From assembly GCA_031406795.1 (NCBI GenBank), contig JANOHV010000255.1:1-11933 (forward strand): a stretch of 11,933 nt of DNA. The letters run 5' to 3'. The stretch is from DATDCY01 sp031406795 [NCBI: Candidatus Rokuibacteriota bacterium]. GTDB lineage: Bacteria > JAUVQV01. Each line of letters opens with the position of its first letter. The first letter of the stretch is position 1. The translations under genes were made by a program, and so were the position numbers. Below, in pieces: positions 5,439-11,630 of this stretch. The notes under the pieces are model-generated. The model saw only the letters and a program-made list of their open reading frames with translations, had not been told where the DNA came from and did no database searches.

Positions 5439-5542
5439 ATTACGGCACTACTCTATGTCACAGCTGAATAAATATTCTTTAGCCTGATATTACACCTGTT
5501 CCCGTTACGCCGATGAAAAGTGCATCTGCGGCGCTGGGCTTC

Positions 5543-5624
5543 GGGGTGGCGTGGAGGGGAGGTCTCCATCGGCGGAACGAGCACGATGGAGGTCCGCAGC
5601 GACAGGACCCCGCAGCCCGCACGG
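5543..5624. repeat. Intergenic structured repeat, copy A
   Basis: This 82-bp element recurs at 9501-9608. The left block (5543-5574) matches copy B at 29 of 32 positions and the right block (5582-5624) at 40 of 43, with a variable centre. On the plus strand it can form an outer stem GGGGT (5543-5547) with ACCCC (5607-5611) and an inner stem TCTCCATCG (5563-5571) with CGATGGAGG (5584-5592), closing a 12-base loop. It lies 39 bp beyond the panD stop. Function and family are unknown to me; a structured RNA or a REP-like DNA element are both possible. Confidence 0.7.
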
Positions 5625-5663: not shown

Positions 5664-6020
5664 TCAGCTGAGTTTTGTTATGCGATTGTGCTCGTCGACG
5701 AGCGCCACGCGCGGCAGGAAGCCGGGCAGTTCGGCATCCGCAAGAAGCGCGTAATTCGCGACGATGATCTTGTGGCCAATCTCCACCAGGTGGGCCGCAG
5801 CGCCGTTCACGCAGATGGTGCCCGTTCCCCGGGGACCGGCGATCGTGTAGGTCTCGAATCGCTGGCCTTGAGTGACGTTGTACACCTGGATCTGCTCGTG
5901 GGGCAGCAGACCCACCGCGTCCATGAGATCCTGGTCAATCGTCAACGAGCCTTCGTAGTCGAGGCACTTGTCGGTGACCGTTGCGCGGTGGATCTTGGCT
6001 CTGAGCATGATCCGCATCAT
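5664..6020 (-). CDS. panD: Aspartate 1-decarboxylase PanD (proenzyme)
   Basis: PanD decarboxylates aspartate to beta-alanine for pantothenate synthesis, using a pyruvoyl group made by self-cleavage. The 118-residue protein has IHRATVT (10-16), the cleavage region LDYEGSLTID with the Gly24-Ser25 bond, YNVTQGQRFETY (47-58) and ICVNGAAAH (69-77), then LVDEHNRI near the end. Ser25 would become the pyruvoyl residue. The ATG at 6020 overlaps the panC stop as ATGA; ATGs at residues 2 and 5 are possible alternatives. PanC condenses its product with pantoate, so the order panB-panC-panD forms a complete branch. Confidence 0.97.
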   Translation of the reverse strand: MMRIMLRAKIHRATVTDKCLDYEGSLTIDQDLMDAVGLLPHEQIQVYNVTQGQRFETYTIAGPRGTGTICVNGAAAHLVEIGHKIIVANYALLADAELPGFLPRVALVDEHNRITKLS

Positions 6021-7213
6021 CGATGGGCGGTCCCCTTCCCTGCAGTCGCCTTGCCCTTTACCGCAGGAACCGCCGCGGACTTCACCACGGGCTTCACCAC
6101 GGGCTTCATCACCGGCTTGGCGACCGGCATTGCCGCAGCCCCGGCACCCGGTTTGCCCGCGGGTTTCGCCGCGGGCTTCGCCGCCGGCTTGACCGTCGGC
6201 TTGACCGCCAGCTTCTCTGCGGAATCCGCCGCGGGCTTCGCTGCAGGTTTCGGCGTGGCCTGGGCCACCGTCTGCGAGCCGACACCCTCGGGCTTAGCCG
6301 CGGCGGGGGCCTTCGCCGGCTTCTTCAGATCGGCGCGCTGACTCAGTTCGCGCAAGTCAAAGAGCGTGTTGTCGATCAGGCGGGCGCGCCCGATGCGCAC
6401 CGCCAGCGCGACGAGGGTGCGGACCTCGATGGTGTCCAATTCGTGCAGCGTCTCCGGATGGCAGATCGAGATGTATTCGATCTCCGCACCCGGCTGGGCG
6501 CGGATCACTTCGCGCAGGTTCGAGGCGACCTTCGCCGCCGAACGCTCGCCCTTGGCCATGATCCGGGCGGCGACGTGCAGTGCCTGCTGCAGCGTCAGCG
6601 CCGCCGGTCGCTGTTCTGGGGTGAGATAGGCGTTGCGCGACGAGAGCGCCAGGCCGTCGGCCTCGCGCACGGTGGGCACGTCGAAGATCTCGACCTCGAA
6701 ATTCAGGTCGCGGGCCATCCGGCGCACGATCAGCAGCTGCTGGTAGTCCTTCTGGCCGAACCAGGCATGGTGCGGCTGGACGATCGCGAAGAGCTTGGCG
6801 ACCACGGTGGCCACGCCACGGAAATGCGTCGGACGCGCCCGGCCGCAGAGCCGCTGCGAAAGGTCGTCGACATCGACGTGCGTGCGGTGGCCGGGGGGGT
6901 AGATCTCGGAAGCGTCGGGGGTGAACACGGCTGCGACGCCGAGCTCCTGAAGCTTGGCGATGTCCCCGGCCAGATCGCGCGGATAGGCCGAGAGGTCCTC
7001 GCGCGGCCCGAATTGAAGGGGGTTGACGAAGATGCTGACGACGACCGTATCCGCCTTCTGGCGCGCCGCTCCGACGAGCGCGAGATGCCCCGCGTGAAGC
7101 GCACCCATCGTCGGCACCAGGGCGATCCTGGCCCCGCGCTTGCGGGCATCGGCGCTGAAACGGCGCATCTCGGCGATGCTCTTGACGACCTTAACCGTAG
7201 CTGTGTTCTTCAT
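6017..7213 (-). CDS. panC: Pantothenate synthetase PanC with a Lys/Pro/Ala-rich C-terminal tail
   Basis: PanC joins pantoate and beta-alanine with ATP to give pantothenate. The catalytic part has [14 protein letters not shown] (34-47, the HxGH nucleotide motif), [20 protein letters not shown] (61-80), FGQKDYQQL (152-160) and [15 protein letters not shown] (183-197), ending around [12 protein letters not shown] (276-287). That is the usual full length. A further 110 or so residues follow, with repeated KPxxKPxx units, no Cys and many Lys, Ala, Pro and Val, resembling histone H1-like tails. The tail is in frame and overlaps panD by ATGA. The ATG at 7213 is chosen because GGGGAGG lies about 10 bases upstream; an ATG at 7240 has no such site. 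The start lies inside the end of panB (23-bp overlap). Confidence 0.95.
6080..6214. repeat. 12-bp tandem repeat region encoding the PanC tail
   Basis: CTTCACCACGGG occurs twice in exact tandem (6080-6091, 6092-6103), followed by two degraded units to 6127. A second block of 12-bp-like units spans about 6152-6214. Each unit encodes four residues of the KPVV/KPAA type on the minus strand. Because 12 is a multiple of three, unit gain or loss would change tail length without breaking the frame. Confidence 0.75.
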
Positions 7214-8021
7214 CAGGAAAGAGCCCTCCCCGTACCTCATCGCAGAACTGCCGCACTGCCCGGCCCGCCTCGTCGCCGCAGGCGGCGTACCTCTTCACAA
7301 ACTTCGGCCGGTGCCCGCCCCAGAGCCCCAACAGATCGTGGAGCACGAGCACCTGACCGCCGCACTCCGGTCCGGCGCCGATGCCGATCGTCGGCACGCC
7401 GAGGGCGGCGGTGACGCGCGCCGCCAGCTGCCGCGGCACCCCCTCGAGAACGACGCCGAACGCGCCGGCCTCCTCGAGGGCGCGGGCGCCGTCGATGATC
7501 TCGCGCGCCCGGTCCTCGTCGCGTCCCTGCACCCGGTAGCCGCCCATGGCGTGCACCGACTGCGGCGTCAAGCCGACGTGACCGAGTACGGGCACCCCCA
7601 TGGCGACGATCGACGCCACAGTTGCGGCGATTTCCGCCCCGCCCTCGAGCTTCACCGCCGCCGCGCCGCCCTGCTGGAGAAACCGCCCGGCATTGCGCCG
7701 CGCCTCCTCGGCGCTGATCTGGTAGGAGAGAAAGGGCATGTCGGCGACGACCAGCGCGCGGCGCGTGCCGCGGGCGACCGCCCGCGTGAACACGAGCATG
7801 TCGTCCATCGTGACGGGCAGCGTGCTGTCGAGGCCCAGGGCCACGATCCCGAGCGAGTCACCGACGAGCACGATGTCGACGCCGGCGTCGTCGGCGATCC
7901 GCGCGAGAGAATAGTCGGTCGCGGTAACCATGACGAGCCGCTCGCCGGCGGATTTCTTCGCGCGAAGCGTGGCGATCGTGACCTTCTCAGCGTTCATGCC
8001 GCCCCCCGTTCCCGCGGTCAT
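7191..8021 (-). CDS. panB: 3-methyl-2-oxobutanoate hydroxymethyltransferase PanB
   Basis: PanB transfers a hydroxymethyl group from 5,10-methylene-tetrahydrofolate to alpha-ketoisovalerate, the first step to pantothenate. Seen are [10 protein letters not shown] near the start, the metal ligand regions VGDSLG (D55), VVADMPF (D94) and VKLEGG (E126), HVGLTPQSV (148-156), VLEGVP with the likely catalytic E193, and TIGIGAGPE (211-219). The usual CDGQ after this reads CGGQ (220-223), and TAYDYS reads TATDYS (33-38); both are small departures. The ATG at 8021 overlaps the kinase stop as ATGA; the ATG at 7997 would give the more typical family length and is a real alternative. The 3' end overlaps panC. 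Confidence 0.96.
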
Positions 8022-9447: not shown

Positions 9448-9500
9448 CTGCTCCAGTCAGGTCGGTCAAGTTGCGCGATCCTCCGGGCGGCAAGGTCGAA

Positions 9501-9608
9501 GGGGTGGCGCGGAGGGGAGGCCTCCGTCGGCGCACCGCAGGGAGTACCCGCTCGGGGGGCATAAACACGATGGAGGTCAGCAGCGTCAGGACCCCGCAGC
9601 CTGCACGG
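9501..9608. repeat. Intergenic structured repeat, copy B (with 26-bp insertion)
   Basis: This is the partner of 5543-5624, in the same orientation. The outer stem is GGGGT (9501-9505) with ACCCC (9591-9595) and the inner stem is CCTCCGTCG (9521-9529) with CGATGGAGG (9568-9576). Two of its differences from copy A fall in the inner stem and both keep pairing on the plus strand (A-T to G.T, and T.G to C-G). The inner loop is 38 bases against 12 in copy A; the extra 26 include a possible small hairpin GGG-AGTA-CCC (9540-9549). It lies 23 bp beyond the dapL stop. Confidence 0.7.
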
Positions 9609-9631: not shown

Positions 9632-10804
9632 CTACAGGACTTTGCCGATCCGCTCCACCGCCTCCTCGAGGCGCGACACTTCGACGGACAGTGCGAAGCG
9701 AACATAGCCTTCGCCGTGAGCGCCGAAACCGTTTCCCGGGGTACAGACGACGTCCGCCTTCTCGAGCAGGAGGCCCGAGAAAGACTCCGACGTGTGGCCG
9801 GGGGGGACCTCGCACCAGAGGTAGAAGGAGGCCTGGGGCTTCTTCATCTTGAGGCCGAGCTTGCGCAGCCCGCGGTAGAGGACGTTGCGGCGTTTCTGGT
9901 AGAGCCGGCGCATCTTCTCGACCGGCTTCTGGTCGCCGAGGAGCGCCGCGATCCCCGCGTCCTGCACCGCGCCGAATGCGCCCGAGTCGATGTTGGCCTT
10001 GATGTGTCCGAGCCCCTTGATCACGCTGGCGTTGCCGACGACGAAACCGAGGCGCCAGCCGGTCATGTTGTACGTCTTGGAGAGCGAGTGGAACTCGACC
10101 CCGACTTCCTTCGCACCCGGGGCTTCGAGGAACGAAGGCGGCCTCGCGCCGTCGTAGTACATCTCGGAATAGGCAGCATCGTGGCAGACGACGACGCCGG
10201 TCCGCCTCGCGAAGTCCACGACCTTGCGGTAGAAATCCAGATCGGCCACCGCCGCGGTCGGGTTGTTCGGGTAGTTCAGGAACAGCAGCTTCGCGCGCTG
10301 CAGGGCTTCCTGCGGGATCGCCTCGAGGTCGGGGAGAAAATCGTTCTTCTTCAGCAGCGGCAGCATGTACGGCTCGCCGCCGGCGAGGAGCGTCGCCGCG
10401 CTGTAGACCGGGTAGCCGGGGTTCGGGACGAGCACGACGTCGCCCGGATCGACGAAGGCGAACGGGATGTGCCCGATCCCCTCCTTCGAACCGATCAGCG
10501 TCAGGACCTCCGTCGCCGGATCAAGGATGACGCCGAAGCGCTCCCGATACCACTGCGTGACCGCCGTGCGGAAGGAGAGCTTGCCCGTATAAGAAGGATA
10601 CTGATGGTTCCCCGGTTCGGCGACGGCGGTTTTGCCCTCGCGGACGATGTGCCTGAAGGTCGGCTGGTCGGGGTCGCCGATGGAGACGTCGATGAGGTCG
10701 GCGCCCTTTGCCTTGGCCTCGGCCTTCAGCGCGTCGATGCGGGCGAAGAGATAGGGCGGCAGCTTGGCGAGGTTGCGGGCGAGGCGAGGCGTGAAATCGG
10801 TCAT
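9632..10804 (-). CDS. dapL: LL-diaminopimelate aminotransferase (DapL-type, class I/II aminotransferase)
   Basis: DapL converts tetrahydrodipicolinate and glutamate directly to LL-diaminopimelate, bypassing the succinylated or acetylated routes. The 390-residue protein is a fold-type I PLP enzyme: DVSIGDPDQPT (39-49), SKEGIGHIPFAF (106-117), NPGYPVY (128-134), LNYPNNPT (176-183), CHDAAYSE (207-214), SLSKTYNMTGWRLGF with PLP lysine K243 (240-254) and YVRFALS with the carboxylate-binding R369. The ATG at 10804 has AAGGAG five bases upstream; an upstream extension lacks this. The DapL function is inferred from its place 16 bp after dapB and from its resemblance to Geobacter-type DapL. An alanine/aspartate aminotransferase is the main alternative. 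Confidence 0.87.
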   Translation of the reverse strand: MTDFTPRLARNLAKLPPYLFARIDALKAEAKAKGADLIDVSIGDPDQPTFRHIVREGKTAVAEPGNHQYPSYTGKLSFRTAVTQWYRERFGVILDPATEVLTLIGSKEGIGHIPFAFVDPGDVVLVPNPGYPVYSAATLLAGGEPYMLPLLKKNDFLPDLEAIPQEALQRAKLLFLNYPNNPTAAVADLDFYRKVVDFARRTGVVVCHDAAYSEMYYDGARPPSFLEAPGAKEVGVEFHSLSKTYNMTGWRLGFVVGNASVIKGLGHIKANIDSGAFGAVQDAGIAALLGDQKPVEKMRRLYQKRRNVLYRGLRKLGLKMKKPQASFYLWCEVPPGHTSESFSGLLLEKADVVCTPGNGFGAHGEGYVRFALSVEVSRLEEAVERIGKVL

Positions 10805-10820
10805 GGGGTCTCCTTGAAGG

Positions 10821-11630
10821 TCATTTAAGGCCGAGCACATCCATCATGTCGTAGAGTCCCGGCACGCGGCCGACGACCCATTTTGCGGCGCGCACCGCCC
10901 CGCGCGCGAAGGTGTCGCGCGAATGCGCGCGGTGCGTGATCTCGATGCGTTCGCCGAGCCCCGCGAAGGTCACCGTGTGGTCGCCGACGATGTCGCCGCC
11001 GCGCACGGCGAAAATGCCGATCTCCTGGGTCGTGCGCTCGCCGACCATCCCCGAGCGCCCCGGCACGGCGACCTTGTCGAGATCGCGACCCAGCGTCTCG
11101 GCGATCACCTGAGCCATCTTCTTCGCCGTTCCCGATGGCGCGTCCTTCTTGAAGCGGTGGTGCGCCTCGACGATCTCGACATCGTACGAGTCGCCCAGCA
11201 CGGCGGCAATATCCCCGAGCACCTTGAAGAGCAGGTTGACCCCGACGCTCATGTTCGGGGCGTAAACAATCGGGATCTTCCGCGCGGCCTTCTCCAGAAC
11301 CGCCACCTGCGCCGCATCCAGACCGGTGGTGCCCAGCACCAGAGCCTTCCCCAGCTGCACGGCCAGCGCGACGTGCCGCAGCGAGGCCTCCGGCGCGGTG
11401 AAATCGATGAGCACGTCCCCGCGGGGCAGGACGAGTTCCATCCGCTCCTCGATCAGGACATCCTCGAGGCGGATGCCGGCCGTGATCCCGGCGTCGCAGC
11501 CGAGCGAAGCGTGCCCCGGGCGTTCGCAGGCCCCGGACAGCGCGATGCCCTGCTGCCCGTCGAGGGCGGCGATGATCCTCTGGCCCATGCGCCCGCCGGC
11601 GCCGGCGACGACTGCGCGAACCTGTTCCAT
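10821..11630 (-). CDS. dapB: 4-hydroxy-tetrahydrodipicolinate reductase DapB
   Basis: DapB reduces the DapA product to tetrahydrodipicolinate using NAD(P)H in the lysine/diaminopimelate pathway. The 269-residue protein has the nucleotide-binding VAGAGGRMGQ (8-17), DFTAPEASL (76-84), LGTTG (99-103), YAPNMSVGVN (123-132) and the substrate-binding and catalytic EAHHRFKKDAPSGTA (155-169), including the His-His and Lys of the active site. The start at 11630 is chosen because AGGGGG lies seven bases upstream; an ATG two codons earlier is too close to it. It follows dapA by 11 bp and precedes dapL by 16 bp, so the three genes probably form one transcript. Confidence 0.97.
   Translation of the reverse strand: MEQVRAVVAGAGGRMGQRIIAALDGQQGIALSGACERPGHASLGCDAGITAGIRLEDVLIEERMELVLPRGDVLIDFTAPEASLRHVALAVQLGKALVLGTTGLDAAQVAVLEKAARKIPIVYAPNMSVGVNLLFKVLGDIAAVLGDSYDVEIVEAHHRFKKDAPSGTAKKMAQVIAETLGRDLDKVAVPGRSGMVGERTTQEIGIFAVRGGDIVGDHTVTFAGLGERIEITHRAHSRDTFARGAVRAAKWVVGRVPGLYDMMDVLGLK

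Follow-up and report, generated by a model that had tools for sequence, protein, structure and literature searches.

A dispersed hairpin repeat, probably REPIN-like, that folds on the strand antisense to the genes behind which it lies

Two copies of a hairpin element in the window

The window, the whole stretch of 11,933 nucleotides analysed here, carries two direct copies of one hairpin element (Table 1), a short one in the gap between the stop codon of panD and the start codon of mraZ and a longer one in the gap between the stop codon of dapL and the start codon of folK. Each copy is antisense to the gene whose stop it faces, and both belong to the kind of placement that we call codirectional antisense. 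The preliminary description, made from the sequence alone, had placed the elements at 5543-5624 and 9501-9608 in the same orientation, and alignment bore this out. With the tails to 5624 and 9608 included, 69 of 75 positions agree outside the variable centre, the same figure on recounting as had been given. Unlike this tail, which is common to the two window copies, the flanks vary among other copies of the family. The reported distances to the stops of panD (5664) and dapL (9632), 39 and 23 bp, are right when measured from 5624 and 9608 and become 51 and 35 bp with the ends set by the covariance model; NCBIfam matches established the identities of both genes.

The outer stem GGGGT/ACCCC folds as claimed, and so does the 9-bp inner stem, which reaches 11 bp once G.U pairs are counted. 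Compared with dinucleotide shuffles, the plus-strand folds of copies 1 and 2 had z-scores of -3.24 and -2.04, and 1 and 4 of 200 shuffles, respectively, folded as well. No third copy was found in the window at E 0.05 (model R2, see below). Rfam gave no match in the window at the gathering score, in agreement with the earlier remark that the repeat fits no family that could be named, and 15 related loci searched at E ≤ 1 yielded one weak Rfam match, outside the element. TIGR00018 spans residues 16-294 of PanC (window 6017-7240), whose C-terminus extends as a tail of some 110 residues, rich in Lys, Pro and Ala and containing short repeats.

Table 1. Element copies, their parts and the facing genes in the window
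Feature	Coordinates	Strand	Basis
Copy 1, short form, 71 nt	5542..5612	+	alignment; model R1, 85.3 bits (training copy)
Copy 1 outer stem, 5' side GGGGT, pairs with 5607-5611	5543..5547	+	fold; A2 pairs
Copy 1 inner stem, 5' side, pairs with 5584-5594	5561..5571	+	fold; A2 pairs
Copy 1 inner stem, 3' side	5584..5594	+	fold; A2 pairs
Copy 1 outer stem, 3' side ACCCC	5607..5611	+	fold; A2 pairs
Copy 1 tail, common to copy 2	5613..5624	+	alignment
panD, aspartate 1-decarboxylase; stop faces 3' end of copy 1	5664..6020	-	NCBIfam TIGR00223
Copy 2, 97 nt, longer apical part	9500..9596	+	alignment; model R1, 83.6 bits (training copy)
Copy 2 outer stem, 5' side GGGGT, pairs with 9591-9595	9501..9505	+	fold; A2 pairs
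Copy 2 inner stem, 5' side, pairs with 9568-9578	9519..9529	+	fold; A2 pairs
Copy 2 inner stem, 3' side	9568..9578	+	fold; A2 pairs
Copy 2 outer stem, 3' side ACCCC	9591..9595	+	fold; A2 pairs
Copy 2 tail, common to copy 1	9597..9608	+	alignment
dapL, LL-diaminopimelate aminotransferase; stop faces 3' end of copy 2	9632..10840	-	NCBIfam NF006756/TIGR03540

Distribution, architecture and folding strand of the family

A pattern scan of genome contigs gave two matches, in a contig of a 'Nitrospirae' MAG (L001) and in a contig of a 'Chitinivibrionia' MAG (L002). The latter holds one copy together with an inverted second copy, and their inner stems differ by compensating changes. When the class to which the L001 genome belongs was searched with a covariance model built from the five copies in the window, L001 and L002 (R1), 8 of 269 genomes had matches. 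With a second model built from 22 copies (R2), matches at E ≤ 0.05 numbered 26 in G001, 5 in G002, 19 in G208, 33 in G283, 34 in G281, 16 in G280, 5 in G097, 6 in G368 and 1 in G134. At E ≤ 0.001, R2 matched at least 37 of 395 genomes in the phylum of G001 (the 'Nitrospirae' MAG) and at least 10 of 80 in that of G002 (the 'Chitinivibrionia' MAG), counts that include some genomes that supplied training copies, and eight large-contig genomes had at least 1 to 6 matches each at E ≤ 0.01. These three sets of counts are lower bounds because the scans scored only 12, 59 and 150 candidates per genome, respectively.

In the scan of 80 genomes, E-values reached 2e-12 in genomes without training copies. 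As the same structure recurs in other genomes, the likeness of the two window copies is more than chance, and the many copies per genome in relatives agree with the suggestion that the element is dispersed genome-wide. Exact-pattern searches of the relatives returned the known copies and five matches without the surrounding element, and two patterns had no match in viral contigs. Misbinning of the first contigs was considered and rejected: the tetranucleotides of the L001 contig resemble those of its MAG, those of L002 less clearly so, and both MAGs hold further copies. An origin from phages or plasmids was also set aside, the matches being weak and partial (copy 1 in plasmids, copy 2 in phages). 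For the DapL protein of the window, the best match over its length was 62% in 61 genomes of the phylum of G001, where one fragment of 129 residues had 66%, and 49% in 80 genomes of the phylum of G002.

The family has a fixed frame, GGGU-GR-CGCC...GGCG-RCAGG-ACCC, around an exchangeable interior, and its members are mostly about 70-118 nt long, the commonest length being 114 (129 matches). Among 155 copies, which were found by a model that expects this frame, GGGTG(R) occurs at the 5' side in 142, CAGGACC near the 3' end in 142 and both in 132. From the base upwards, the fold consists of the outer stem, an internal loop of GR against RCAGG, a second helix that begins with CGCC/GGCG and, above it, a G-rich step followed by a third helix whose top varies.

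For the five first copies covariation was weak, 31 of 500 shuffles reaching the same score. In A4, an alignment of 22 copies made without the model, the outer pair of columns 3-141 is G-C in 11, C-G in 6, U-A in 2, U-G in 1 and unpaired in 2. Two-sided changes affect 11 of 19 pairs (47 cells) in A5, with 22 copies and none of 500 shuffles as good, and 15 of 19 pairs (292 cells) in A6, with 129 copies, where the covariation score was 0.313 as compared with 0.104 for shuffles and at most 0.047 for slid versions. Both alignments were fitted to the structure, so that the counts lean towards it, and the slid controls answer this in part only. The two-part stem is real and supported by covariation. 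According to the preliminary description, its reading would fall if the genome held just the two copies and relatives showed no covariation, or if the hits were remnants of a known transposon or gene; the search that it proposed, with a covariance model in relatives and a covariation test, produced many copies, a covarying stem and no such remnants.

The two inner-stem differences between the window copies had been taken as a hint, though a weak one, that pairing is kept on the plus strand, through G.T or C-G, and large sets of copies agree. Over 2259 cells of paired columns read on the plus strand, G.U occurs 146 times and A.C 20 times; once the training copies and the single pair with a G.U consensus are left out, the figures are 60 and 15 of 1758 (p=1.6e-7), and a further 33 distinct rows show a small excess, 17 and 7 of 600. 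Of 152 copies, 129 have the lower-energy fold on the plus strand with RNA parameters and 145 with DNA parameters. The preponderance of G.U over A.C marks the plus strand as the folding strand, and together with the lower plus-strand folding it indicates that selection, on the copy or on its spread, saw this strand single-stranded. GGGUGRCG...RCAGGACCC, on the plus strand, is thus the strand kept foldable.

Placement and turnover at gene ends

Gene neighbourhoods were taken from a simple, crude custom gene caller, which put 21 of 165 copies inside genes and gave 128 copies a scorable neighbour on each side. Of the latter, 49 lie in convergent gaps, 52 are codirectional antisense, 12 codirectional sense and 15 divergent; an earlier count on 120 copies gave 46, 48, 12 and 14. 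The convergent and codirectional antisense copies together place the 3' end towards a stop, antisense to that gene, in 101 of 128 cases, in agreement with the earlier observation that the elements lie just beyond gene ends, and 79 of these 101 are within 60 bp of the stop. The bias holds within codirectional gaps alone (52 antisense, 12 sense, p=5e-7), and in the 49 convergent gaps the 3' end is the one nearer to a stop in 35 cases as against 13 (p=0.0005). Of 109 copies, 50 have the 3' end at most 15 bp from a stop and 85 at most 60 bp; for the 5' end, a stop lies at most 15 bp away in 12 of 65. Convergent gaps make up 41 of 108 element-bearing gaps and 19 of 128 element-free gaps of at least 60 bp.

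Proximity to stops is, by itself, ordinary: stem-loops are described as generally enriched in convergent gaps and behind stops (PMC1590033, in part), and an effect on translation is reported for Escherichia coli REPs that lie no more than 15 nt from a stop codon (PMC12306157, in part). What is unusual is the antisense bias combined with plus-strand folding. For 52 of the 128 scorable copies, both neighbouring genes run antisense to the folding strand, and the 15 nt upstream of the copies carry no strong signal in base composition. Among the 80 copies that lie no more than 60 bp from a stop, 3 have the run of 4 A in 12 nt that would read as a U-tract in the gene sense. On these grounds single-stranded DNA is at least as likely as RNA to be the form in which the strand was read. 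Of the earlier proposal of an RNA read against the neighbouring genes, the strand asymmetry is supported and the RNA nature is not. An intrinsic terminator was rejected because the U-tract is absent.

Sites were treated as orthologous when a neighbouring protein was at least 60% identical and a copy lay within 120 bp of the same gene end. This rule yields 29 orthologous pairs of copies. Five genomes share 20 of these pairs among themselves, and independence would predict about 2.4; the genomes are related, so inheritance explains part of this excess. In nine of the 29 pairs identity is below 0.75 though each member has a relative of at least 0.85 identity elsewhere in its genome; identity is 0.85 or more in 4 pairs, and 16 fall into neither class. 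A looser rule gave 38 pairs, with a median identity of 0.69 as compared with 0.64 for random pairs between genomes. Agreement in the orthologous pairs has a median of 0.86 in the arms and 0.62 in the interiors, and shared ends often carry different subfamilies with similar arms. In the alignments of L121/L137, L120/L113 and L153/L129, flanks and arms are similar and the interiors between them differ; the L125/L115 copies are near-identical. Orientation is kept: among 26 stop-side pairs, both 3' ends lie at the stop in 23, both 5' ends in 3 (one pair is counted in both) and the ends are mixed in 1. Candidate empty sites inspected among the fetched loci gave no clear, clean case. The orthologous-site data are compatible with independent re-insertion, with conversion through the arms and with deep inheritance, and do not separate the three.

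The end of tenA has a copy in four genomes (L103, L131, L138 and L185, with L138 and L185 0.86 identical) and the end of gatB in three (L075, L094 and L192). These pairs mostly differ in subfamily, and the family search named the gene at L138, L185 and L192 only.

Eleven neighbouring matches lie within 100 bp of each other; their 5' ends face in 8 cases and their 3' ends in none, and 3 are in tandem, some of the tandem neighbours being partial matches. Some copies are enclosed in further shells: ACCCGTTGC/GCAACGGGT surrounds 13 of 164 copies (0.0 in shuffled flanks) and GGGTGRC/GCGACAGG surrounds 8 of 164 (0.5 in shuffled flanks). In L002 (6667-6881) an inverted pair of elements lies inside purL with the reading frame open and coincides with an extra stretch of PurL, residues 127-206, where in one alignment a solved chain has 7 residues.

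The ACCCGTTGC...GCAACGGGT module was seen around copies at L076, L082, L084, L085, L087, L093, L095, L096, L103, L111, L120 and L135, and a similar module without a copy inside seems to interrupt L015:1765-1908. This module may be a repeat in its own right that acts as a target.

Relation to known repeats and interpretation

Like REPs, REPINs and BIMEs, the family is dispersed and intergenic, often near stops and in inverted pairs, and it shares with them conserved ends around a variable spacer, compensatory changes and the lack of a transposase of its own (PMC3116915, PMC3733652, PMC12306157, each in part). The dispersed intergenic palindrome with inverted pairs and compensatory changes is a mark of REPs and REPINs that the family displays. 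REP units measure 20-40 bp, whereas the copies studied here are rods of 70-118 nt with conserved internal loops, anchored antisense by their 3' ends and built on the same frame in two phyla. Many small palindromic repeats have been classed by GTAG/CGTC tags and RAYT transposases (PMC3733652, in part). The tag is an unpaired tetranucleotide at one end, and the association with a RAYT gene concerns the GTAG families, those with CGTC being said to lack one. In the end windows of 154 copies GTAG/CTAC occurs 13 times (31.9 in shuffles) and CGTC/GACG 17 times (46.4 in shuffles). The RAYT domain PF01797 (Y1_Tnp) was matched in 10 of 20 genomes with the element and in 14 of 20 genomes without a listed match, with no association; it was absent from the first two genomes checked and from G077, a single-contig genome with 6 copies. 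This distribution led us to reject a link to Y1/RAYT enzymes. The element works most like a REPIN but lacks two marks of the tagged REP families.

Other hairpin repeats resemble the family less. ERIC, NEMIS and the Yersinia and Enterococcus repeats also lie near gene ends, and they are described as cotranscribed with flanking genes (PMC1590033, in part); this description sets them apart from a family that folds on the antisense strand in most codirectional gaps. Direct repeats of 5-8 nt, the target duplication that marks DDE-type MITEs, flank none of 154 copies, and repeats of 3 and 4 nt flank 2 and 3 of 154 (2.6 and 1.2 in shuffles), a result that holds for the borders set by the model, which may be off by a few nt. 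The Rickettsia RPEs are palindromic elements that lie in frame inside genes. The inverted pair inside purL recalls them (RPE: PMC3733652, in part), whereas the family as a whole is mostly intergenic. The frame strings, searched in the literature, matched only two human-genetics papers, and no title or abstract on palindromic repeats in Nitrospira or Nitrospirae described the family; most subscription journals lay outside both searches. The palindrome counts predicted for Nitrospira moscoviensis (PMC12306157, in part) may include copies of it.

We consider it probable, with some reserve, that the window copies are members of a REPIN-like family of dispersed hairpin repeats that is strand-specific and stands apart from the tagged REP families. 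Of the alternatives, a chance resemblance among GC-rich palindromes has a negligible probability: hairpins do form easily in GC-rich genomes, and the idea is refuted by the low E-values in non-training genomes, the covariation and the placement bias. In integrons, the folded bottom strand of an attC site is antisense to the gene and abuts its stop codon, and the R core box has the consensus RYYYAAC/GTTRRRY. A recombination site of this type would account for the 3' end of the folded antisense strand pointing towards the stop, the unpaired central loop, the strand-specific folding and the variable terminal structure (the last two as in PMC8946536, in part). It is nevertheless very improbable, with a core box near an end in 1 of 154 copies (6.0 in shuffles), no gene-cassette arrays, which in integrons lie next to an IntI integrase, by eye in 20 loci with neighbours listed, and ordinary housekeeping genes as the named neighbours; membership in attC was rejected on the absence of the core box. 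It also seems improbable, if less so, that the copies are, or once were, small antisense RNAs or RNA processing signals directed from the plus strand against the neighbour. The RNA-like internal loops, the conserved unpaired GR/RCAGG and the G.U excess fit such an RNA. Against it stand the many scorable copies for which neither neighbour transcribes the plus strand, the featureless 15 nt upstream, and interiors that differ at the same site, unlike those of an RNA gene.

A host-selected element that is not mobile, but is inherited at fixed places at gene ends and homogenised by gene conversion, deserves more weight, although we think it rather unlikely. It might act in ending or insulating transcription, in protecting mRNA 3' ends or as a DNA site for gyrase or another protein, as BIMEs of E. 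coli do for gyrase or another protein. The tight spacing to stops, the preference for convergent gaps and the copies that orthologous genes carry at the same end in the same orientation, including the ends of tenA and gatB, all favour it. The foldable strand, however, is antisense to the gene, which speaks against a terminator or an mRNA end, since these would need the other strand; an equivalent of the U-tract is rare near stops, and the close inverted pairs, the shells and the inverted pair in purL look like insertions. The conserved sites and orientation could equally reflect a host function or the REPIN-like repeat that we prefer. Against the latter, the analysis revealed neither a transposition event nor a clean empty site, a transposase or a target duplication at the borders set by the model, and the 1 to 6 matches in large-contig genomes (150 candidates scored per genome) are few for an active mobile repeat.

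The mobility and function of the REPIN-like family are matters that we infer. As a non-autonomous hairpin it would spread and be renewed in the manner of REPINs, and it may be recognised as a single strand, in DNA exposed at replication or transcription. The recognising enzyme would act in trans and is presumably not an obvious Y1 transposase. The preference for gene ends might mean that insertion is targeted to them, is tolerated there or provides a useful hairpin at the end of the gene, and the conserved arms could allow copies within one genome to be homogenised. A bolder proposal, which we put forward only tentatively and regard as rather unlikely, is a strand-specific hairpin recombination system in which a trans-acting enzyme, neither a RAYT nor an integron integrase, would recognise the single-stranded GGGUGRCG...RCAGGACCC fold, place it antisense behind stops and allow exchange of the interior in place, in at least two phyla.

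The observation from which this work started, a repeat with a shared two-stem fold beyond the 3' ends of genes, is confirmed, and its interpretation is partly supported. The family has neither GTAG/CGTC tags nor a link to RAYTs, yet it has one covarying architecture across phyla; it shows a strong antisense bias at gene ends, and often the interior has changed between arms and at a site that are kept. Hairpins of this kind behind genes point to an unrecognised way of spreading or keeping them, and the family offers a clear, searchable case for studying the spread of such hairpins, the strand that is read and any gain to the host.
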